The notes under the pieces: model-generated
The model's database searches: none
The model's input: the letters and a program-made list of their open reading frames with translations, nothing else
Told to the model about the DNA's origin: nothing
Shown here: positions 32,417-44,882 of the stretch, piece by piece
Layout of the letters: the number at the start of each line of letters is the position of its first letter
Position numbering within the stretch: position 1 is the first letter of the stretch
Assembly: GCA_013388835.1 (NCBI GenBank)
Contig: JACAEL010000014.1
Span: 1 to 64,000 of the forward strand
Source: Candidatus Thorarchaeota archaeon
GTDB taxonomy: Archaea; Asgardarchaeota; Thorarchaeia; Thorarchaeales; Thorarchaeaceae
Direction of reading: 5' to 3'
Length of the DNA stretch: 64,000 nt
Translations under genes and position numbers: made by a program

Positions 32417-32590
32417 TCCAGCAATGCGCTCTTGTGTTCTATTGCAGGGACAGAACGAGCAGCGGTCTAGGAGTATGCCTCACAAGAAAGCCTTTAATGG
32501 TTCAGGTCGGAATAGCTAGAGGTAGTGTGCCTCTGCCCACCTTTGAGGCCGCAAGAGCCGCTGCTCACGCCCAAACGAGAGTGATACCCG

Positions 32591-35500
32591 TTGATTTCAA
32601 CTGTTACCGCAGACAGAAGAAAGGCTGGCATCACAACAGTAATCAGCTCCCTTATCCTTCTCATGACAGTGGTATGGGCCACGACTTCGTTTGTGCTAGT
32701 GCAGTTCACTCAGCCGCGCACTGAGACGCCCCACGAACCTCTCTCGGATATGATGCCATGGCCATATGACATACCTTGGGCCGGTGGGCGCTCAAACTGG
32801 TTTGAGAATGTGAACTACACAGACCTTCCCTTGGATCAGCAACTGCCTGAGGACCTCCTTCAACAGCTTGAGAACATAGTCTTCTATGTTGCGCCTCAGG
32901 ACCCTCCCCAACTGTGGCGTACTGGTGCATACGACGCATATGATGGGTCACGATGGACCAAGACCTTGGAGAGCAGAAGAGACCTGAACTCTGCCGAGCT
33001 CGTGTCTAGATCCTACGCGGAGTCTCTCGGCAACCAGATTTACACTGTCATAGTCAATGTGACAGCGGGCCCAGTAGTGGGCGACATCGAGCTACCTGTT
33101 CTCTTTCCACAGACCCTGATTGTTGAGGACTCTTTCCGTACAGGCTCCATAGTCGGTGGTTCGTTCCAATATGACAGCGAGAGTCGACTGATCAACTATG
33201 GTCTGAAATCAGACGAGTATGGAACGGTCCTATTCAGCCCACTTCTACAGGCTCCAACGGGCTCGAGTGTCTTGGTCAGCTATGAGGTCACGTATGTCAA
33301 CCAGGACCTCTCTAGTGTGGCTGCCTCTGCTCTGCCAGGTTCTAATGCACCATCCGAGATTCGTGACATGTATGGTCTTCCTGCTCTGAGTGGGGTCTCA
33401 CTCACCCCTGCGGTGATTGGTAACATAACTCAGTTCCAAGGCAGCGGAAGCAATGCTTATGAAACCGCGATGATTGTGAGTAACCATTTCCAGACTGCTT
33501 ATGATCTCATTCTCAGTGATCCGGAAGTCTTCGAGCGTCCTTCTAGTGGCCAAGAGGTGACAGACTGGTTCCTTGCACGGAATGGTGGGTTACCAATGGA
33601 CTTTGCCACGGCCTATTGCGTCTTCATGAGGTACTTGGGCATACCTGCGCGACTGGCTATGGGATATGCCATTGGAGACCCTGAGGGAGAGTACAGGACC
33701 GTCCGAGTCAGACACATGATGTTTTGGGCGGAGGTCTACATTCCAATGAGTGGATCCGAGGCAGGCACATGGATACAAGTCCTGCCAATGGCTCTTCCCG
33801 ATGACATGGGCGGATCTGAGATTCCTGAGAACACTGACCCCGGAAGCGTGCAGCTATGGGTCTGGCATAGCGAGGTAGGTACAGGATGGATCCGAGTAGG
33901 GGATCAGTTCGAGGTGTACGCATCCATCATCTTCAATGGTATGCCTGTGGCGACGGGCGACACACTCATCTTCCGAGACGTGACCGACAACCGATTGATG
34001 GGGTCTGCAGAAATCAACCCGACGACACGTGTTGCAACGCTGTACTACTCCTTCCCCTCCAGTGCCAGTGCTGGGTTGCATAACCTTAGTTGTGTCTACC
34101 ATGCAGCCAGCTTCGATGTGTACAACTTCACCCTGATTTATGCGGTTGCAAGCCCCGACCCACTTGCTATGCCAGCAGAGACTATCAGCTTTGCACCAAG
34201 TGAAGTCGTCGACATGAACCTCAAGCTCGGTTTGGACGACTACATCGCATATTGGGATGACATAATCCACGTTCATGGGCTGATGACTGTCGGTGGCAAC
34301 CCAGTTGACGGTTCAACCCTCGTCAACAATCAGATGCAGATAATGTGGGACGAGAGCTGGATTGGCAATGCCACGATTCTTAGCGACGGGACCTATGAGT
34401 TTGATATCTCTGTCAACCCCGTTAGCTCCAGAATGACACTGGGATACCACTTGGTATGGTCCAGTTATGCTGGGGAGTACCAAGGTTCTATCCCTGTGCT
34501 GCTACCTGCCCGGTCCGCAGACAACTCAACGGTCGAGGTCTGGGGCAAGGCTCGGGTCCAGCTGTGGGTCGCCCCCACAGAGGCCTCCCGCGGCTCCACC
34601 CTTCACTATCAGGGGCGTTTGCGTCTGCTCAACGGAACCTATCTGGCCTCGCAGCCGATTGGGCTGTTCTTCGATGAGACCAAGTTTGATACCGTGCTGA
34701 CCAACTCAACAGGCGGCTTTGTAACTGACTATGTTGTACCCACCTCAACGACAATTGGTTTCCATACTGCAATCGCCAATTGGACTCCTTTTTTCATTCA
34801 GCGAGTAATAGGTAACTGGAGCAACTCCGTCGATGTAGAGATTGTGATGCAGTCCGCTCAGCTCTCAATCAACTCCACGCCCTCCAGTCCTGAGGTTGTT
34901 CACTTCCTGGAGGACATCGTGATTGAAGGTCGGCTCACAGACGAGCTCAACGGGTCTGGAATAAGTGCGAAGACGGTCCACATATGGTGGAATGAGGGCG
35001 GCAACTTGACATACCTCGGGAACACTACGACGAATGCATATGGCGACTACCAGTTTGTATACACTGTTCCCATTGGGTACATCGGTTCAGTTTCCTATTG
35101 GTCTGAGTGGATCTCTGATGTGCCTAATTATGATGGCGCAACATCACCGGTCCTGTCCATCTTTGTGACAAACTACATGACCAACCTGACCATCTTCTCC
35201 GACTCCTCCTACTATCATCTAAACGAGACCGCCCATATCTGGGGCTTCTTGACCTTCGAGAATGGGACACCGATTTCAAGCCGGAATGTCTCCGTCTACT
35301 GGCTCAACTCGACCACTCTGCTCTCCTTCAATACAACGACCAATGGCCTTGGCCGGTACGACTTGTTCTATCCACTGTCTCTGAGTGATGGTCCTGACAC
35401 CGTCCAGGTCGCTGCCCATTTTGTGTCATGGACCCCGCTGTACAACGACTCCAGTGCATTGCTTGCTCCCCCTCTCACACTCCAGTTGTACCAGATGGAC

Positions 35501-38500
35501 CTCACAGCTTCACTGGACAACACTCTCTATCATCTTGACGAGGTCATCCATGTCTCAGGAACACTGTCCTTTGTTCAGAACGGGGCACCGATTGCAGGGG
35601 CGACAGTGTGGGTTCATTATCAAGACAGTGCGCTGAATCTTCAGGTGTTTCAGAGGACTACAAACGGACTGGGTCAGTACTCTCTCTACTACAACTGCAC
35701 GACTGCTGACCCCCTTGGAACGGTCCGCATCTGGGTCACATACTCTGCTACGAACCCGCTCTGGGACAATGGTCAATCTGACAATCAGACTGCCACCCTG
35801 ATACTGTACGCTCTGACGCTCACGACGTCAACGAACTCGACTTCCTACCATCTTAATGAGACCGTATTGGTCTACGGAGTACTGACATTCACACACAACA
35901 GCACACCCATTCAAGGAGCAGTCGTCACGGTCTATTGGAGATGGGACAACGGGACTGTGCACAGCTATCTTACAAACCCGACCAATGCCACCGGACACTT
36001 CACATTCTACTACAACCTGTCCGTGTCCAGCGACCGAGCAGGCACTGTCACAATATGGGCAGCATACAACTCCACAGCCCCTCTCTGGGCAGACGCGGAC
36101 TCCTATCCGGGGGTCACAGTGAGCCTCGTTCTCTATGCGGTCGAGCTGAGTGTTGTGTCACCCGGGTCTGTCTACTTGGACGAGAGCCTAGTGATTGAGG
36201 GCACCCTGACGTATCAGGGTGGTCAACCTCCCATCGTGGCTGAGCTTGTCAGGCTGTTCTTGCTTGAAGGTCCTGACTGGGTATTGATTCACCAGATGCC
36301 GACAAATGCCACAGGGGGATTCAGGTATGTATACACTTTCACGCCAACTACACAAGGACCGGGCATGTACCAGTTCAAGTGGAACTACTCATCTAGCGAT
36401 CCCCTGAGAAGCAGTGCAGAGACTCCCTTTTCGGTCAATGCCCTCAGACATGATGTGAACATGGAGTTCTCGGTATATCCTCTTACCACATACCTGAACC
36501 AGTCACTCCTACTCTATGTCCGCCTGTACTTTGACAACGGCTCTGCGTTGAGTGATGCCAACTTCTCTGTATTCTGGAGCAATCATACTCATGACTTGGT
36601 CATTCTGGTCGGGACTACGAACTCGACTGGTGAGTGGGAGTATCTGTACACGGGGTTCCGGCTCCACACTGACCTATCGCCGAGTCTGTATGTGGAGTTC
36701 GATGGCTCCCCAATCCTTGAGAACAACCGGTCAGACGACATTGGAGTGAGCTTGGAGCGTTGGCAGACGCTGATAACAGGACTTGATACAGGTGGCGTCA
36801 CCAGCATCTATGTCACCCAGACACTATACATCAGCGGTGTTCTGTGGTATGACCTGCCTATCACGGATATCCCCTACGGAGATGCACAGGTGGTCATACT
36901 ACTTGATGGGTCTCCTATTGGCATCACATCCTCTCTAGGTGACGGTTCATTCGAGTACGCTTGGCTTGTGCCACAGAACCTCTCCACCCTAGGAGTTCAC
37001 CAGATCTCGGCAGCCTATGTTTCATCATTCAACTGGATTGCCAGTTACACAAGCAGTTCAATCGGCGTGAACATCACGGCATACGTGCTGACCTGGGTTG
37101 TCAACAGTCCTTCAATTGTCTATCGTGGCGAAGACTTGGTTGTGACGGGCACATTATCTCTTGACAATGGGACCTCTCTAGTCGGCTATACCGTCTGGCT
37201 TGTTCTCGCTGGAGAATACGTGACGGGCAATGTGACTGGCGGCGGAGGCGCATTCTTGCTCTCATACATTGTGCCTTGGAATCGGGTTGTCGGCCCTGCC
37301 TCACTCTTTGTCGAGTTCGATGACCCGGGTGGTGTTCCATTCTGGAACATGGCATCTGACGAGCAGTCCGTGACCTTGAGAGACCTGATCAATATCGACT
37401 TGGACCCTCAGAGCGTATATGTCGTCAACCATGGCAGCTCCCTGACTGTCAGCGGCCGGGTCACGAATGGAGGCGGCAATGTCGCCGGAGTACCTCTGGT
37501 GGTCTTTGTCGATGTTGCCCCCGGCAGTACGACATTCTACAGTCAATCGGATGGCACCTTCTCTATTGACCTCTACGTCGAGTACGGTTTGCCAGTCGGT
37601 ACATACACATTGAGCGTCACCGTGGACAGTCCCTATTACGATATCCTAGGAGAGAACGAGACATGGTCTGTCCGTCTTCATCTGACCACGGTGATTACGA
37701 TCTCTATTACTATCCCTCAAGACGTCATGCCCGGTGAGGAGATAGTAGTCCTTGTGAGTCTTGTTGATGAGTATGGCGCTCCTGTCAATGGAGCGGTCGA
37801 ATTCTCAGTCGGCAGTGTCGTGATTAACACTTCCAGCATCTTTGCGGCAGTACCTACTGCCGTGAGACTGACCATTCCCGTGTCATGGTCTGGGGGTAGC
37901 GGCCACTTTGCAGTGGCTGTGACATACAATGGCAGTGACTACATTGATGGAGACAGCGCTCAGACTGTATCGACCTTTCACATATTTGCGGATGCGGTCT
38001 TCACGGTGACCAGCCCAGCAGCAGTTCAACTCACAACACAACCTCTGGTCGTCAACGGCATCCTGAAGGATGATCTTGGCAATCCGATAGTTGGTCGTCG
38101 CGTATACGTCCGTGTGGGTGAAACGGATGTGTACAGTGCCCTGACGGACCTGTCTGGTCGCTTCTCATGTGTCATCGATGCGAGCCCGGCAGCAGGTACG
38201 TACACTTATACGCTCTCGATTGCTGGAGCGAACGAGCATCAAGCTGGCCCGTTCACAGTCATGATTCAGACAAACACAGGTGGTAACATGCAACTCCAAG
38301 AACTTCTCATACCGCTGATAGCAGTGGCTGCTGCTGCGGTATCTGTACTTCTTTACTTGTACTATGTCCGTGGTCTGGGCAGAAGAGCCACTCGGACCAC
38401 AGGTGTTGACATCAGGGACAAGCTCAGAAACATCAGAAAACTCGCAGACTCCGGAAAATACTCTGCAGCAATCACTCTTGCCTACCGGACCTTCGAACAG

Positions 38501-38734
38501 ATGTGCGGGATGAAGATGGGGTCCGAACGCCTCAGTTCTGAGACATCGCGCGAGTATGTCGAGCGCGTCCTCAAAGCCATCCCACTCGACGGGGCTGCTG
38601 TGGAGGAGTTCATGCAGAGCTATGAGGAAGCACGCTTCTCACGCCACGAGATACCGCGAGAGCAGTGTGAGCGGGCCATCAAGACCTTCACAGACCTGTA
38701 CCCTCGCGTCGATACTGGTGTGATGACCAAGTAG
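32591..38734 (+). CDS. Giant membrane-anchored protein: degenerate transglutaminase-like domain, about 14 Ig-like repeats, DUF4129
   Basis: The 2047-residue protein has an N-terminal membrane segment (about 13-38), a transglutaminase-like domain (about 260-395), then roughly 14 beta-rich repeats of 95-110 residues. Each repeat begins near a YHLNETVxVxGxL pattern and carries TTNxxGxYxxxY later (about 410-1890). A membrane helix (about 1906-1927) and a cytoplasmic DUF4129-type helical tail (GKYSAAITLAYRTFEQMCG) end it. In the transglutaminase core GLPMDFATAYCVFMRYLGIPAR, Pro335 replaces the catalytic Cys and HMMFWAEV puts Met377 at the His site. Many NxS/T sites suggest glycosylation outside the cell. 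The start is a TTG. First gene of a five-gene operon. Confidence 0.85.
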   Translation: MISTVTADRRKAGITTVISSLILLMTVVWATTSFVLVQFTQPRTETPHEPLSDMMPWPYDIPWAGGRSNWFENVNYTDLPLDQQLPEDLLQQLENIVFYVAPQDPPQLWRTGAYDAYDGSRWTKTLESRRDLNSAELVSRSYAESLGNQIYTVIVNVTAGPVVGDIELPVLFPQTLIVEDSFRTGSIVGGSFQYDSESRLINYGLKSDEYGTVLFSPLLQAPTGSSVLVSYEVTYVNQDLSSVAASALPGSNAPSEIRDMYGLPALSGVSLTPAVIGNITQFQGSGSNAYETAMIVSNHFQTAYDLILSDPEVFERPSSGQEVTDWFLARNGGLPMDFATAYCVFMRYLGIPARLAMGYAIGDPEGEYRTVRVRHMMFWAEVYIPMSGSEAGTWIQVLPMALPDDMGGSEIPENTDPGSVQLWVWHSEVGTGWIRVGDQFEVYASIIFNGMPVATGDTLIFRDVTDNRLMGSAEINPTTRVATLYYSFPSSASAGLHNLSCVYHAASFDVYNFTLIYAVASPDPLAMPAETISFAPSEVVDMNLKLGLDDYIAYWDDIIHVHGLMTVGGNPVDGSTLVNNQMQIMWDESWIGNATILSDGTYEFDISVNPVSSRMTLGYHLVWSSYAGEYQGSIPVLLPARSADNSTVEVWGKARVQLWVAPTEASRGSTLHYQGRLRLLNGTYLASQPIGLFFDETKFDTVLTNSTGGFVTDYVVPTSTTIGFHTAIANWTPFFIQRVIGNWSNSVDVEIVMQSAQLSINSTPSSPEVVHFLEDIVIEGRLTDELNGSGISAKTVHIWWNEGGNLTYLGNTTTNAYGDYQFVYTVPIGYIGSVSYWSEWISDVPNYDGATSPVLSIFVTNYMTNLTIFSDSSYYHLNETAHIWGFLTFENGTPISSRNVSVYWLNSTTLLSFNTTTNGLGRYDLFYPLSLSDGPDTVQVAAHFVSWTPLYNDSSALLAPPLTLQLYQMDLTASLDNTLYHLDEVIHVSGTLSFVQNGAPIAGATVWVHYQDSALNLQVFQRTTNGLGQYSLYYNCTTADPLGTVRIWVTYSATNPLWDNGQSDNQTATLILYALTLTTSTNSTSYHLNETVLVYGVLTFTHNSTPIQGAVVTVYWRWDNGTVHSYLTNPTNATGHFTFYYNLSVSSDRAGTVTIWAAYNSTAPLWADADSYPGVTVSLVLYAVELSVVSPGSVYLDESLVIEGTLTYQGGQPPIVAELVRLFLLEGPDWVLIHQMPTNATGGFRYVYTFTPTTQGPGMYQFKWNYSSSDPLRSSAETPFSVNALRHDVNMEFSVYPLTTYLNQSLLLYVRLYFDNGSALSDANFSVFWSNHTHDLVILVGTTNSTGEWEYLYTGFRLHTDLSPSLYVEFDGSPILENNRSDDIGVSLERWQTLITGLDTGGVTSIYVTQTLYISGVLWYDLPITDIPYGDAQVVILLDGSPIGITSSLGDGSFEYAWLVPQNLSTLGVHQISAAYVSSFNWIASYTSSSIGVNITAYVLTWVVNSPSIVYRGEDLVVTGTLSLDNGTSLVGYTVWLVLAGEYVTGNVTGGGGAFLLSYIVPWNRVVGPASLFVEFDDPGGVPFWNMASDEQSVTLRDLINIDLDPQSVYVVNHGSSLTVSGRVTNGGGNVAGVPLVVFVDVAPGSTTFYSQSDGTFSIDLYVEYGLPVGTYTLSVTVDSPYYDILGENETWSVRLHLTTVITISITIPQDVMPGEEIVVLVSLVDEYGAPVNGAVEFSVGSVVINTSSIFAAVPTAVRLTIPVSWSGGSGHFAVAVTYNGSDYIDGDSAQTVSTFHIFADAVFTVTSPAAVQLTTQPLVVNGILKDDLGNPIVGRRVYVRVGETDVYSALTDLSGRFSCVIDASPAAGTYTYTLSIAGANEHQAGPFTVMIQTNTGGNMQLQELLIPLIAVAAAAVSVLLYLYYVRGLGRRATRTTGVDIRDKLRNIRKLADSGKYSAAITLAYRTFEQMCGMKMGSERLSSETSREYVERVLKAIPLDGAAVEEFMQSYEEARFSRHEIPREQCERAIKTFTDLYPRVDTGVMTK

Positions 38735-38768
38735 TGAGTGGTGGTTCGAGACGGCGGCCAAACAAGCG

Positions 38769-40148
38769 ATGTGGATTATACTGTTTGTCTTGACATGGCT
38801 ACCAGTTGGTATCCTAGTCCTTGAGAGCGCCGGCGGAGTGCAGGAGTCCTACAGTTATGACTTCAGTATCTACAATGAAGAATGGAATGGGCTCAGCGAC
38901 TTTCGAGTACAGATTGAGTCGACAGGACGCGAAACGATGTCCATACAGTCTGTCGTCAGCGTCGTGACTCGCCTGAGAGGTCAAGCCATACTTGTAATTA
39001 TGGGCCCTGTAAAGGACTTCAGCGCTGAAGCCGCCTTTGTCTTCTGGGATCACCTATCTCAAGGCGGAGGCCTATTGATAGCAGATGACTTTGGAACCGC
39101 AAACTCCTCTTTGGCCATCTTGAACCTTCTACTTGCAGGTTCTCTTGGTGGCTCTGGTCTACCTATCGAGAGCTTGGTTTCCTTTACGGGTGGCGTGCTT
39201 CTAGACTTAGACTCCTACGATACGAGTCCAAAGCTACCTGTGATTACCCGTTTCACACCCGGTCTGGACGGAGGCGCACTCACCCAGGGCGTCACCAGTC
39301 TGCATCTGAACTGGGCAACCGCACTCAGTCCCAGGTCTGCTATGGGTTTCGCAGGAGTTGCATGGACGACCCAGAGGGCATGGTGCGATACTAACATCAG
39401 TGACCCCTCTCCCTATCCGGATGAGAACGAGTGGAGTGGTTCACTGCCGGTCGCCGGTGCAATCGACCTCGACCTCCTCCTCCAGGGTGAAGAGACACTT
39501 GGAAGAATGGTTGCAGTCAGTGACCCGAGTCTCTTCATCAATGATATGCTGGGTCGGGGCAGCAACAGTGTGTTCGCTGCAAATGTCGTGAACTGGCTCA
39601 GCAGAGGTAACTCCTCATTGCCAGTGGTGTTCTGTGAGACGCTTCTGCCTGTGCCCTTTACTTCGGCTGAGTTCATGTATGGAGTCTATCTCGGCCGAGT
39701 CCTGTTCTTCGCCACACTTCCATTCTTCTATGTCGTTGCTCCACTCTTTACAGTTGTTGGACTACGGCGGTACATTCCTGACCCGAAGAAGCCTGAGGTA
39801 AAGTCGATGTCAGAGGTCTTCCTCAGGAAGGGACAGACTTACTTCAGCGAGAGAATGGCATACTATCGTAGCGTCGGCAACTACGCCCGAGTCGTCAAGA
39901 TGCTGTATCGGAAGCTTGTACGGGACTTGAAGAAGACATATGGCTGGGCCGACTACGACCCAAGAAGGCTGTGGTCAATCCTCTCGTCCAGAGAACGTAC
40001 ACTCAGAGAAGACGACTTCCACAGAACAATCAAGAGAATCGAAGAGATATCAGCCCGTCCCTTCATGAAAATCAAGGAGAATGAGATGATGAATCTCTTC
40101 TTCTTCATACGAAACATCCAATCACTCCTAGTCGAATCAAAAACGTGA
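38769..40148 (+). CDS. DUF4350-like membrane protein
   Basis: The 459-residue protein has an N-terminal membrane segment and an extracellular domain of about 270 residues. A DUF4350-type fold is suggested by ILVIMGPVKDFSAEAAFVFWDHLSQGGGLLIADDFG. A second membrane segment follows (about 310-330), with a charged cytoplasmic tail that includes KTYGWADYDPRRLW. Such proteins sit with MoxR and DUF58 genes in archaea and bacteria. It lies 34 bases after the giant protein and 15 bases before moxR, clearly in the same operon. The molecular role is unknown. Confidence 0.8.
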   Translation: MWIILFVLTWLPVGILVLESAGGVQESYSYDFSIYNEEWNGLSDFRVQIESTGRETMSIQSVVSVVTRLRGQAILVIMGPVKDFSAEAAFVFWDHLSQGGGLLIADDFGTANSSLAILNLLLAGSLGGSGLPIESLVSFTGGVLLDLDSYDTSPKLPVITRFTPGLDGGALTQGVTSLHLNWATALSPRSAMGFAGVAWTTQRAWCDTNISDPSPYPDENEWSGSLPVAGAIDLDLLLQGEETLGRMVAVSDPSLFINDMLGRGSNSVFAANVVNWLSRGNSSLPVVFCETLLPVPFTSAEFMYGVYLGRVLFFATLPFFYVVAPLFTVVGLRRYIPDPKKPEVKSMSEVFLRKGQTYFSERMAYYRSVGNYARVVKMLYRKLVRDLKKTYGWADYDPRRLWSILSSRERTLREDDFHRTIKRIEEISARPFMKIKENEMMNLFFFIRNIQSLLVESKT

Positions 40149-40163
40149 GGTAGACATGAGAAA

Positions 40164-41150
40164 ATGAGCACTGAGGAAATTGAAAGCACCGGCCTGGCCT
40201 CGTCAGGCCCCATGAGCATCCCTGAGGTGCACGAACTGACCTCGGAAATAGTGCGCGAGTGTCAGCGAGTCATCGTCGGCAAGACTGATGCGCTGAGGGA
40301 CACGCTCATTGCATTCCTGTCAAACGGACATGTGGTACTAGAGGGAGTGCCAGGCCTTGCTAAGACCTACATGGCACGCACCTTTGCTTCTATTCTGGGC
40401 TGCGCATTCAAGCGAATTCAGCTCACTGTCGACACCCTGCCAGGTGACATACTTGGAGGAAACGTCTTCAACCAAGCGAGTGGCGAGTTTTACTTCCGCA
40501 AGGGTCCCGTATTCGCCAATCTTGTACTTGCTGACGAGATCAACCGTTGTCCGCCGAAGTCACAGAGTGCTCTCCTTGAGGTAATGGAGGAGCGCCAAGT
40601 GTCTATTGAAGGTGTGACCCGGAAGCTGCCTAACCCGTTCCTGATCATTGCCACCCAGAATCCAATAGAACAGGAGGGCACATATCCTCTTCCGGAGGCA
40701 CAGCTCGACCGTTTCATGTTCAGACTGATACTGGACTATCCTACTGACAGTGAGGAGTCCGAGGTCATACGTCGTAAACACCTTGGGGAGGCAACGGACC
40801 TCAGAGTGTTGGCCAACCCCGAGACGATAGTGCGAATGCAGGATGCATGTAAGACGGTATACTTGGATGAGGACGTCATAAACTACATTCGGGACATAAT
40901 AGTCCGCACGAGAAACGATCCTCAGATTCTCTTGGGTGGCTCGCCACGAGCTTCTCTGGTCCTGATGAGCGCTTCAAAGACGCGGGCTGCAATGCATGGT
41001 CGCGACTACGTGATTCCAGAGGATGTCCGCAGACTGACTGTCCAGACCCTGAACCACAGGCTCATGCTAAAACCAGAGGCCGAGCTCGAAGGACTGTCAA
41101 TCGAACGGGTCATCTCAAAGATCCTAGGAGAGGTTGATTGCCCCAAGTAG
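40164..41150 (+). CDS. MoxR-family AAA+ ATPase
   Basis: The 328-residue protein has Walker A VLEGVPGLAKTYMART (about 57-72), Walker B LVLADEINR (about 119-127), the PKSQSALLEVMEERQVSIEG stretch of MoxR ATPases, sensor 1 LIIATQNPIEQEGTYPLPEAQLDRF and a C-terminal lid. MoxR proteins act as chaperones that mature or activate partner proteins, usually with a DUF58/von Willebrand-type partner, which here follows 30 bases later. Confidence 0.95.
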   Translation: MSTEEIESTGLASSGPMSIPEVHELTSEIVRECQRVIVGKTDALRDTLIAFLSNGHVVLEGVPGLAKTYMARTFASILGCAFKRIQLTVDTLPGDILGGNVFNQASGEFYFRKGPVFANLVLADEINRCPPKSQSALLEVMEERQVSIEGVTRKLPNPFLIIATQNPIEQEGTYPLPEAQLDRFMFRLILDYPTDSEESEVIRRKHLGEATDLRVLANPETIVRMQDACKTVYLDEDVINYIRDIIVRTRNDPQILLGGSPRASLVLMSASKTRAAMHGRDYVIPEDVRRLTVQTLNHRLMLKPEAELEGLSIERVISKILGEVDCPK

Positions 41151-41180
41151 GCTCATTTGCCATGCCAGAGGGAAGAGGAC

Positions 41181-42503
41181 GTGATCACACAGAGAGGCTT
41201 TGCAATGGCCTTCGCAGGGATATTCCTGCTCACCAGTGGGTTTGCCTACACCAACTTCTACCTCACGACACTGGGTGTCTATCTCATCGTTGGCCTTGTA
41301 GTCACACTGCCTCTCTTTGCTCTGACCGCGAACATCTCCGGAATTGAGGTTCAGCGTCGGGTTGACAAGACAAAGGTCTTCTCAGGGGACTTTCTGCGGG
41401 TACAGGTGAGGGTGAAGAACACCTCTCGTCGTCACTTTGACTTCATAGAGGTCTGGGATCAGTTCCCAGAAACCTGGGTCCTGGCAATCGGCGAGAACTC
41501 TATCGCCTCAAGGATTGAGCCGGGCGGCAGCATCACTTTCTCCTACATAGTGCAGGTGCGTATGAGGGGGCGCTACTACCTAGGTCCGACGGAAGTCATC
41601 ATGCGTGACAGAGTGGGCCTCCATTACTATAAGCGTGAGGTCGAGGCGAAGACCGAGATCTTGGTCTATCCCACATGGAAGGACGTTCGAAGAATGGAGT
41701 CACTTGGGAAGCAGCGCCAGCTGGGACTGATGTATGGTGCTCATCGGGCCAAGGTCGTCGGAATGGGTACCGACTTTGCAGGGTTCAGAGACTACATCCC
41801 AGGCGATGCCTTTCGACTCATAGACTGGAAGGCCACTGCTAAGCATGGGGACATGATGGTTCGGCAATTCGAGATGGAAAAGAACATCCAGATTGTCTGT
41901 ATGGTGGACACGTCCGGCAGCATGGGGAACGGTTATCCAGAGAACACTAAGCTGGAGTACGCAATCAGAGCTGCAGTCCTCCTGTCGTACATGGGGCTTG
42001 AGAGAAAAGACCTACTGGGCACATGTGTGTTCTCTGACTTTGTGCACTCCTTCGTTCCACCGGGTTCAAACCCAAGTCACATGTATGACATCCTCGAGTC
42101 TCTTGCAATGGCATCACCGGGTGGCTGGAGCGATTATGAGACCGCAGTCAGTCATGTCGTCCGCCAGCTGACGAAACGTACTCTGTTCATATTCCTCACT
42201 GACCTTGAGGAGAGTCCAGCTCCGTTGATCAACGCAATGAAGACAGTCGTGGCAAATGGTCACCGGGCCCAGATCATAAGTCCCTTCGGACCTTGGTTCG
42301 AAGCACCCGTGGGTCAGTTTGGTCCTGTCGAGAAAGTGCTAGCCGAAGCGGTTTCGGAGGAGCTCTGGGAACGACGAGCGAAGATAGCTCGTGCCCTTGC
42401 AAGGTTCAACATTCCCGTGGTCAATGTGGGTCCTGAAGACTTCCTGCCAACGATAATCCGCCAGTACAATCTTGCGAAACAGAAAGGAGTGGCGATGCAA
42501 TGA
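41181..42503 (+). CDS. DUF58 protein with von Willebrand A-like domain
   Basis: The 440-residue protein has two N-terminal membrane helices, a beta-rich middle (VQRRVDKTKVFSGDFLRVQVRVKN) and the DUF58 motif RDYIPGDAFRLIDWKATAKHGDMMVRQFE. A vWA-like part with the metal-site pattern VDTSGSMGNG comes next. DUF58 proteins pair with MoxR ATPases. I choose the GTG at 41181, preceded by GGAAGAGG; a TTG at 41157 is possible. The next gene begins inside its stop (ATGA overlap), so translation is coupled. Confidence 0.88.
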   Translation: MITQRGFAMAFAGIFLLTSGFAYTNFYLTTLGVYLIVGLVVTLPLFALTANISGIEVQRRVDKTKVFSGDFLRVQVRVKNTSRRHFDFIEVWDQFPETWVLAIGENSIASRIEPGGSITFSYIVQVRMRGRYYLGPTEVIMRDRVGLHYYKREVEAKTEILVYPTWKDVRRMESLGKQRQLGLMYGAHRAKVVGMGTDFAGFRDYIPGDAFRLIDWKATAKHGDMMVRQFEMEKNIQIVCMVDTSGSMGNGYPENTKLEYAIRAAVLLSYMGLERKDLLGTCVFSDFVHSFVPPGSNPSHMYDILESLAMASPGGWSDYETAVSHVVRQLTKRTLFIFLTDLEESPAPLINAMKTVVANGHRAQIISPFGPWFEAPVGQFGPVEKVLAEAVSEELWERRAKIARALARFNIPVVNVGPEDFLPTIIRQYNLAKQKGVAMQ

Positions 42504-43882
42504 AGCCGGTCACAGTCGTCCTCCAGTTGCTGTTTACGGTCGTATTCGTCGTCATGTGCTGGCTGGTCTACAATCAGCTCTCCGGTCAGTGGCGATGGGA
42601 CGTCCCGTACACCTTCATCGCGACGGTCTTCAGACTCCTGTCACTCTTGTTCTTCGTCCTAGTGTTTGTGCTCGTGAGCGGTCTGGCCGCATTCTTCGCA
42701 AGCGGCACTGCTCTTGACAACATTGTGGTGGGCTTGTACAACGTCCTAGTGCTGCGCATGTGGTATATGCAGCCGTACGGCCTTGACGGCCCGTTGACGA
42801 ATGTGTATCAAGTCTTTGGACAGCTCGCCCAGAACTTCTCGGTCTTGGGAGCTAGTCTCTACGATCAGTCCTTCACATTCATGTACTTTCTCTTTGCAGG
42901 CATCGGGGTCGCAATGTTCCTGCAATCGGTCTTCCGGATGCAACACAAGTTTGTGGTCGGCTCCTTCGTTTCAATTCAGCTAATCATGGTAGTTGCAGCC
43001 TTTCGCGAGATTGCAATATACGACTATGCAGTGTTTCCAGGTAGCTTTGCCGAGTTCATAACCAGCGGCCTGCAGATACTTGTACTGCTCTCTTGGGCCT
43101 ACCTTGAGATAGGATATCAGATGATCTACAGTCATTCAGTTGCCAAGCCCGTTGAGGAGCGAGAGAACACGCTAAAGAAGCAACTATTGGCTCTGCGAAA
43201 CGCGACTCGCAAGCAGGATGCCATTGAGCGAGGAGAGGCCGCTGCCAGTTCTGCCATGAGTAGAGCAACGGGTGCCACTGCATTCTCATTCCTGCGGGAG
43301 GCCATAGAACGACGGATACTCGGTAGCAAGGACGGACTCGAGAAACTTGATGCAGTGAGTGATGTGCGGCGTCTCCAGATATTTGTCGACGAACTGCTCT
43401 CAATGGACCCGAAAGCCAAGGATGAGCTGACTGCCCGGGCTGCCGCCCCCTCCAGCAAGTATGTCTTGGTGTCCACGGTGTTAGGCTCAAGCATTCGTTT
43501 CCTTGCGGTAGTTTCTCTCTCGTTTCTCTTGATGAGTCCCGGCCTGCTGGTATCGGTTCTGTCACTTCCGCCCGGAATCGCACAGAGTCTAGAGCTAGTC
43601 CAGCCTGAGTTTGTCATGTTACTCCTTGTGCCTGTTGTCCTCATGTTCCCGTTCACTGCTATGCTGATTTCCATGCTCAGCAACAGAAACATGGAGGAGA
43701 AACCAAAGCTCACAAAGGAAGAGAAAGAGCTGGAGCGGCGCAGGAAGAAAGAACTTGCGGAGCGGAAGAGAGCGGCCGCAAGGGCTAGGCGAGAGCGCGA
43801 ACGAGCACGTAGGAAAAAGGCCGCTGGGGCTGAGGAGAAGGATGAGTGGGACCGGGCTCTGGAGGAAACCTTCCGCAGATGA
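42500..43882 (+). CDS. Operon membrane protein with highly charged C-terminal tail
   Basis: The 460-residue protein has six or seven predicted membrane segments in two blocks (about residues 7-30, 41-66, 137-155, 163-180, 188-205; then 312-345 and 362-390). A cytoplasmic middle (about 210-310) lies between them, and the last 65 residues are almost entirely Lys/Arg/Glu (EEKELERRRKKELAERKRAA). I do not recognise a family. It overlaps the DUF58 gene by four bases and ends the MoxR operon. The tail may bind a membrane surface, nucleic acid or the MoxR ring. Confidence 0.7.
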   Translation: MKPVTVVLQLLFTVVFVVMCWLVYNQLSGQWRWDVPYTFIATVFRLLSLLFFVLVFVLVSGLAAFFASGTALDNIVVGLYNVLVLRMWYMQPYGLDGPLTNVYQVFGQLAQNFSVLGASLYDQSFTFMYFLFAGIGVAMFLQSVFRMQHKFVVGSFVSIQLIMVVAAFREIAIYDYAVFPGSFAEFITSGLQILVLLSWAYLEIGYQMIYSHSVAKPVEERENTLKKQLLALRNATRKQDAIERGEAAASSAMSRATGATAFSFLREAIERRILGSKDGLEKLDAVSDVRRLQIFVDELLSMDPKAKDELTARAAAPSSKYVLVSTVLGSSIRFLAVVSLSFLLMSPGLLVSVLSLPPGIAQSLELVQPEFVMLLLVPVVLMFPFTAMLISMLSNRNMEEKPKLTKEEKELERRRKKELAERKRAAARARRERERARRKKAAGAEEKDEWDRALEETFRR

Positions 43883-43895
43883 AGGGGGACTGGGC

Positions 43896-44882
43896 ATGAC
43901 ATCTGTTGTGCTGTCGCACGGAGACCTTGATGGTATCACATCAGGTGCGATTGCCCTTCTTGCCTTTCCCGGCTCGACCTTCCAGTTCACCCGCCCCGCC
44001 ACAATTCATCAGGACCTGCACAGGCTGTCGAAGTCACCGCCGTCAGTCATCTCCATAAGTGACATTGCGGTCAACGTGCAGACATTCGATAGGATTGTTC
44101 AAGCAGTTGAGTCGTTTCCAGAGACGACGATAATCCACTGGACTGACCATCATCCGCTTGCCGAACGAAATCGTCGTCTCTTGTCTCAGAAGGTCGAGTT
44201 GTTTCACGAGACAGGTCCCTGTGCTGCAGAACTTGTCTTTCGGAAGTTCGGAAGGAATCTGCCAGACCATGCAGTGAGGCTGGCACTATATGGAGCAATT
44301 GGGGACTATTGCGATCAGACTGCTTTTGCATCGGCGCGGTTCGAGGACTTCGACAAGCGGACGCTATACTTCGAGGCGGGCATACTGGTCCAAGCACTTC
44401 AAGAGATGGAGAGTACAAAGAGTCTCAGGGACTTGGTCTTCCAACTCGCGATGGGGGTAGAACCAAGTTCGATGAACGAACTGGTATCACTGGCTGTGAA
44501 GGCTACACGAATTGAGCATGATCTATTTGCATTTGTCCGCAACAACGCTCGCAAGATGGGGAACGTGGGTTTTGTTCTGGACGTGCCAATCAATGGCTAT
44601 CGAGCCAAGTGCGCGAAGTTCGCAGCATATTGCACCGACTCCATAATAGGTGTCAGTGCTCGAAGCAATGCAGACGAGGTGGATCTGTCCATCAGACGTA
44701 GAAACACCGACCTTGACCTCAATATGGCTCTACAGACCATCATGCCAGAGTTCCCCGGCGCCCAAGGCGGGGGACATCCCGCTGCCGCCGGCGGCAGTAT
44801 TGGAAAGACCGAATTTCCCGCATTCATTCAGAGGCTGGCGGAGTACGCACAGCAATCACATCCACAGTTTGTAGCGGACTAG
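43896..44882 (+). CDS. DHH/DHHA1-family phosphoesterase
   Basis: The 328-residue protein starts MTSVVLSHGDLDGITSGAIAL (metal-binding HxDxDG), contains HWTDHHPLAERN (the DHH motif) and ends with GGGHPAAAGG (DHHA1 substrate loop). The family includes RecJ-like exonucleases, nanoRNases and cyclic dinucleotide phosphodiesterases. The size and layout fit a short archaeal RecJ/NrnA-type enzyme. The ATG at 43896, 13 bases after the membrane-protein stop, is the start; longer frames overlap that gene. Confidence 0.9.
   Translation: MTSVVLSHGDLDGITSGAIALLAFPGSTFQFTRPATIHQDLHRLSKSPPSVISISDIAVNVQTFDRIVQAVESFPETTIIHWTDHHPLAERNRRLLSQKVELFHETGPCAAELVFRKFGRNLPDHAVRLALYGAIGDYCDQTAFASARFEDFDKRTLYFEAGILVQALQEMESTKSLRDLVFQLAMGVEPSSMNELVSLAVKATRIEHDLFAFVRNNARKMGNVGFVLDVPINGYRAKCAKFAAYCTDSIIGVSARSNADEVDLSIRRRNTDLDLNMALQTIMPEFPGAQGGGHPAAAGGSIGKTEFPAFIQRLAEYAQQSHPQFVAD

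Follow-up and report, generated by a model that had tools for sequence, protein, structure and literature searches.

We report here that a five-gene operon of a Candidatus Thorarchaeota archaeon is, judged from sequence comparison, an old gene set common to Asgard archaea, which couples a protein remodeller powered by ATP to a long surface protein. By alignment, this giant surface protein is a TgpA-type transglutaminase that lacks all three catalytic residues in Thorarchaeia, and its head has probably ceased to be an enzyme and serves for binding or as a scaffold at the cell surface. The distinctions of the Asgard operon are a head without the triad in most lineages examined, the very long thorarchaeal stalk and a conserved C-terminal peptide.

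Several known systems resemble this operon. The TgpA operon, in which the neighbours are MoxR and DUF58, is built around a transglutaminase that is closer to the head than any other solved structure. TgpA of Pseudomonas aeruginosa (operon PA2875-PA2872) is an active transglutaminase (PMC3507681); it keeps the triad, its activity has been measured and it has no Ig stalk, whereas the thorarchaeal head is without the triad. According to the original prediction, the enzyme stays active in known MoxR-DUF58-transglutaminase sets. This is true of TgpA, but for some MoxR-DUF58 sets no transglutaminase gene is listed, the mycobacterial MoxR-DUF58-DUF4350 cluster being an example (PMC8191103). It also held that the present system would be new. 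In that form the claim is not supported, since a 2015 study had already predicted an archaeal surface complex of DUF4350, MoxR, vWA and Ig-domain proteins (Makarova et al., PMC5898192) and the bifidobacterial PFNA operon offers a parallel, with MoxR, DUF58 and a transglutaminase alongside a large FN3 (Ig-like) surface protein (PMC8430577). The archaeal complex (arCOG01314/DUF4350, with predicted secretion or membrane remodelling) has a predicted operon that unites DUF4350, a MoxR/GvpN AAA+ protein, an Ig+vWA protein, Ig surface proteins and proteins with several TM segments; DUF4350, MoxR and vWA likewise share one predicted operon here, together with Ig-domain membrane or surface proteins. 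The text of the 2015 paper names no transglutaminase (PMC5898192), whereas the Asgard form regularly has a transglutaminase head, DUF4129 and the tail protein. The PFNA operon differs in that the FN3 protein and the transglutaminase are separate, a Ser/Thr kinase is present and DUF4350 is not listed. Here, instead of the pkb2 kinase and separate fn3 and tgm genes, head and stalk form one protein, and no kinase was found among the operon and neighbouring proteins scanned. In NorQ/NorD and related MoxR-vWA pairs, a MoxR ring and a vWA adaptor act on a membrane protein via the MIDAS (PMC9976466), but NorQ/NorD inserts a metal cofactor into an enzyme and has no surface giant. Our search of the literature turned up no relevant work on Asgard MoxR or on Ig surface proteins of Thorarchaeia.

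Organization of the operon

The window is the whole stretch of DNA that was analysed (64 kb). All five open reading frames lie at the positions given by the original prediction, and the claimed order and spacings from the giant gene to the last gene (34, 15, 30 and -4 bp) agree with them, the value of 30 requiring a DUF58 start at 41181; the longest DUF58 frame leaves a MoxR-DUF58 gap of 6 instead.

32486..32498, + strand: BRE/TATA-like promoter element GAAAGCCTTTAAT, upstream of the giant gene
32591..38734, + strand: giant surface protein of 2047 aa, with N-terminal TM anchor, transglutaminase-like head, ~14 Ig-like repeats, TM segment and cytosolic DUF4129
38769..40148, + strand: DUF4350 protein (Pfam, E = 5.7e-9)
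40164..41150, + strand: MoxR AAA+ ATPase (Pfam AAA_3, E = 4.5e-62)
41181..42503 (longest ORF from 41157), + strand: DUF58 protein (Pfam; start set by the 440 aa of its relatives)
42500..43882, + strand: polytopic membrane protein, last of the five, of a family without a Pfam model
43896..44882, + strand: DHH-family protein (Pfam), possible sixth gene, with its likely start 13 bp past the fifth gene

Pfam matched Transglut_core, CarboxypepD_reg and DUF4129 in the giant, and DUF4350, AAA_3 (MoxR) and DUF58 in genes 2-4, respectively. The MoxR protein has both Walker A (GVPGLAKT) and Walker B (LADEIN) in its AAA_3 core, and the DUF58 protein consists of an N-terminal TM pair, a beta domain and a vWA domain that carries the MIDAS residues (DTSGS and D349).

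The only exact match of GAAANNCTTTAAT within the window stands ahead of the giant gene, and most thorarchaeal loci carry this motif or a close variant ~85-125 bp ahead of the start of the giant gene. Gaps within the operon are mostly <50 bp in Thorarchaeia. The promoter motif and short gaps together support a single predicted transcript, which may comprise six genes with the DHH gene included; a scan for sigma-70 promoters and intrinsic terminators is uninformative for archaea. Beyond the DHH gene lies a convergent OPT transporter. The DHH gene adjoins the operon in about half of the thorarchaeal loci and is absent there in the rest.

Conservation among Asgard archaea

The order giant, DUF4350, MoxR, DUF58 and membrane protein is found in nearly all thorarchaeal loci with enough contig and, with the surface genes shorter or split, in Jord, Frey, Odin, Baldr, Hermod, Loki, Hel, Heimdall and Wukong. 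Because it recurs in dozens of Asgard genomes, this order is far beyond chance. A search of gene order across relatives had been proposed, with lack of conservation as the refuting outcome; the order proved to be kept across Asgard archaea, so that this refutation fails. A DUF58 relative is present in 58 of 59 related genomes, and the family of the last protein in 132 of 145 Asgard genomes with completeness of at least 85%, mostly with one match each. Within the operon, the cytosolic parts are conserved while the stalk diverges, identity among Thorarchaeia being 83% (79-87%) for MoxR, 78% for DUF58 and 39% for the stalk.

The arrangement varies in places: DUF58 lies ahead of MoxR in one Asgard family (loci L064 and L175), the transglutaminase head is unrecognisable in some loci (for example L166-L168) and frames are broken in a few genomes. 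One Hermod locus (L140 243-9877) has ~4.4 kb between DUF4350 and MoxR, with MoxR in two frames. In Heimdall/Loki relatives (L123, L128, L130, L145, L151 and related loci) the surface part is divided among three proteins, one with the transglutaminase head and two with DUF4129, of which one is large and the other small. Two loci titled Lokiarchaeota (L077 and L109) fall within Thorarchaeia on the MoxR+DUF58 tree and are probably mislabelled. An assembly or frameshift artefact was considered and ruled out, since identical order and identical replacements recur in many separate genomes.

The transglutaminase head

The nearest PDB entry to the head is TgpA, both by sequence profile (periplasmic domain, 6g49, E = 4.9e-18) and by fold (E = 2.8e-13, with an AlphaFold model of mean pLDDT 84). 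A TgpA-like transglutaminase domain stands beside MoxR and DUF58. When the head was searched against viral folds, most matches were to Ig-like tail and fibre proteins and had low TM-scores.

33455..33781, + strand: Transglut_core domain (head, residues 289-397), lacking the catalytic residues (Pfam, E = 5.5e-11)
33593..33595, + strand: former catalytic Cys column, Pro335 (Pro in 25 of 25 thorarchaeal heads)
33719..33721, + strand: former catalytic His column, Met377 (M/T/A/V/I/Q in relatives)
33782..33784, + strand: former catalytic Asp column, Leu398 (I/V/L in relatives)

The Cys-His-Asp triad of a TgpA-type operon is missing from the 25 thorarchaeal heads; the head had originally been called inactive, and the alignment bears this out with replacements at all three catalytic positions. 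The alignment criterion works, because Cys-His-Asp is intact in another protein of this genome that has a transglutaminase fold (L154 1114-1971). No invariant Cys or Ser occurs in the pocket segment among the thorarchaeal heads compared. Around the His column of the 25 heads, H375 and M376 are invariant and F378 and W379 near-invariant, and the column itself is the freest position of its conserved segment. Conservation in thorarchaeal heads is 0.72 for the transglutaminase core versus 0.59-0.61 for the flanking domains, and the former active-site segments, at 0.82-0.89, rank with its most conserved stretches. Since the core is best conserved yet the His column is free, selection acts on the fold and not on catalysis.

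Elsewhere in Asgard archaea, intact C-H-D was seen only in Jord/Frey loci, one of which has His replaced by Tyr. Odin, Baldr and one further lineage carry S-H-D in register, possibly an active serine version; Hermod has G-H-D, Loki relatives have Phe or Trp for Cys and Tyr for His, and the Heimdall loci have no triad. The Cys replacements vary by lineage (P, S, G, F, W and I). In loci L126, L149 and L177, Ser occupies the catalytic Cys position, with His and Asp retained in register. Each catalytic state forms its own clade on the MoxR+DUF58 tree, an unrooted tree with a weak backbone that would fit one or several losses of the Cys. As far as alignment can tell, the active site is lost in most Asgard lineages examined, and completely in Thorarchaea.

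Erythrocyte protein 4.2, a membrane scaffold with an inactive transglutaminase fold, is among the fold matches of the head. It is, however, cytosolic and eukaryotic, and the likeness is an analogy only.

Stalk and membrane-proximal region of the giant

33866..38269, + strand: stalk of ~14 Ig-like repeats, each roughly 100-110 residues (14 hits of a repeat profile made from segments of the same giant protein)
38303..38359, + strand: C-terminal TM segment, residues 1905-1923 (hydropathy)
38480..38680, + strand: cytosolic DUF4129 domain (Pfam)

The stalk contains 43 N-glycosylation sequons versus 15.6 in shuffles, and none of 500 shuffles reached as high a count; this excess supports a predicted location of the stalk outside the cell. 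Unbroken giants measure 1939-2377 aa in Thorarchaeia versus 1144-1575 aa in Jord, Odin, Baldr and Hermod loci; the stalk, described as enormous in the original prediction, is exceptionally long in Thorarchaeia. That account did not include the C-terminal TM segment and the cytosolic DUF4129 domain, which is the sole DUF4129 match in this genome. Of 37 thorarchaeal loci, 22 have DUF4129 as part of the giant, 13 have it as a separate protein of ~150 aa and 2 have both forms, a distribution that links DUF4129 to the giant. On the tree, the fused and separate states have changed at least twice. Several fused forms, including the present giant, still contain the start-like Met-Gln with which the separate form begins. 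The C-terminal region of DUF4350 is distantly similar to DUF4129, a weak match (hhalign probability 83%, E = 9e-6). Five more DUF4350-like stretches lie outside the operon in the same genome (contigs C38, C7, C14, C71 and C52; L156-L160), some of them in open frames of 700-1466 aa.

The last membrane protein and its tail

The fifth protein matched no family in a search of Pfam and NCBIfam, a fold search of its model gave nothing below E = 1.9, and profiles of DUF4129 and the DUF4350 C-terminal region showed no similarity to it.

43682..43879, + strand: Lys/Arg/Glu-rich tail, terminating in DEWDRALEETFRR (motif at 43841-43879)

The tail had been described as 65 residues of almost pure Lys/Arg/Glu. 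It is indeed charged, but a K/R/D/E content of 68% over the last 62 residues falls short of almost pure. Its final peptide is DEWDRALEE; in the aligned thorarchaeal proteins a basic/acidic linker is followed by DEWD[KR]ALEE or a close variant, with the W-D core in all. Heimdall homologues (L127-L143) have a conserved EEDxFYEQLxxEF ending, which is acidic-aromatic and unlike the thorarchaeal DEWDxALEE. In NorQ/NorD, action on the membrane target depends on the vWA MIDAS, and acidic residues of the target are important (PMC9976466). By analogy, the tail peptide would be well suited to dock at the MIDAS of a vWA domain, which accepts an acidic target residue.

Discussion

We consider it fairly probable that the operon represents, in Asgard archaea, the envelope-complex operon of archaeal DUF4350, MoxR and DUF58, in which MoxR-DUF58 assembles or switches a membrane complex bearing the giant. 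The non-catalytic binding or scaffold head of the giant would be held out from the cell on its long glycosylated Ig stalk, and a cytosolic MoxR ring would use the vWA domain of DUF58 as target adaptor. The MIDAS metal site of DUF58 would dock on acidic cytosolic parts of the membrane partners, namely DUF4129, the C-terminal region of DUF4350 or the DEWDxALEE of the last protein, and ATP hydrolysis would lead to assembly or switching of the complex. In this scheme we infer the topology of DUF58, the docking partners and the remodelling step of MoxR; if the vWA protein is secreted, as read by Makarova et al. (PMC5898192), docking by a cytosolic MoxR is impossible.

After the same authors, the operon could instead be a secretion or export machine that moves other surface proteins out, with the giant as a structural part. 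The gene families are those of the 2015 prediction, and DUF4350 is related to GldG of gliding and secretion systems (PMC5898192), but we saw no pore-like component or variable cargo gene in the operon, whose most elaborate part is the giant, and regard this as unlikely. A conflict (defence) system akin to the MoxR-vWA ternary systems, which have a MoxR-vWA pair and an inactivated enzyme part in common with the operon (PMC7159879), is highly improbable. Those systems combine VMAP, iSTAND, FtsH or beta-propeller proteins with variable effectors; Pfam found none of these four among the operon proteins, there are no variable effectors, and gene content is constant across the phylum, where the operon is nearly universal, mostly with one match per genome, and its lineages separate on the MoxR+DUF58 tree.

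The remaining explanations concern the head. That it retains some enzyme activity through other residues gains from the in-register Ser-His-Asp of Odin, Baldr and one further lineage, and yet it is very unlikely given the replacement of all three positions, the free His column and the lack of an invariant pocket Cys or Ser in Thorarchaeia. We find it quite improbable, too, that the dead head is a mere structural cap or spacer with no ligand: the variety of Cys replacements between lineages would fit this, but not the strong conservation of the former active-site segments. A dead head that, at the tip of the long Ig stalk, binds a ligand on the surface or on a neighbouring cell, as in an integrin-like receptor switched from the cytosol by MoxR-DUF58 via DUF4129 and the DEWDxALEE tail of its partner, is an unlikely but conceivable reading.

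Asgard archaea are the closest known prokaryotic relatives of eukaryotes, and little is known of how their cell surface is built. The operon is near-universal and mostly single-copy and joins an ATP-driven remodeller to a long surface protein, which makes it a good candidate for a core part of Asgard surface building. Furthermore, the graded loss of residues, from C-H-D in Jord/Frey through S-H-D in Odin/Baldr and G-H-D in Hermod to none in Thor, provides a natural comparison set for the passage from an enzyme to a binding part.
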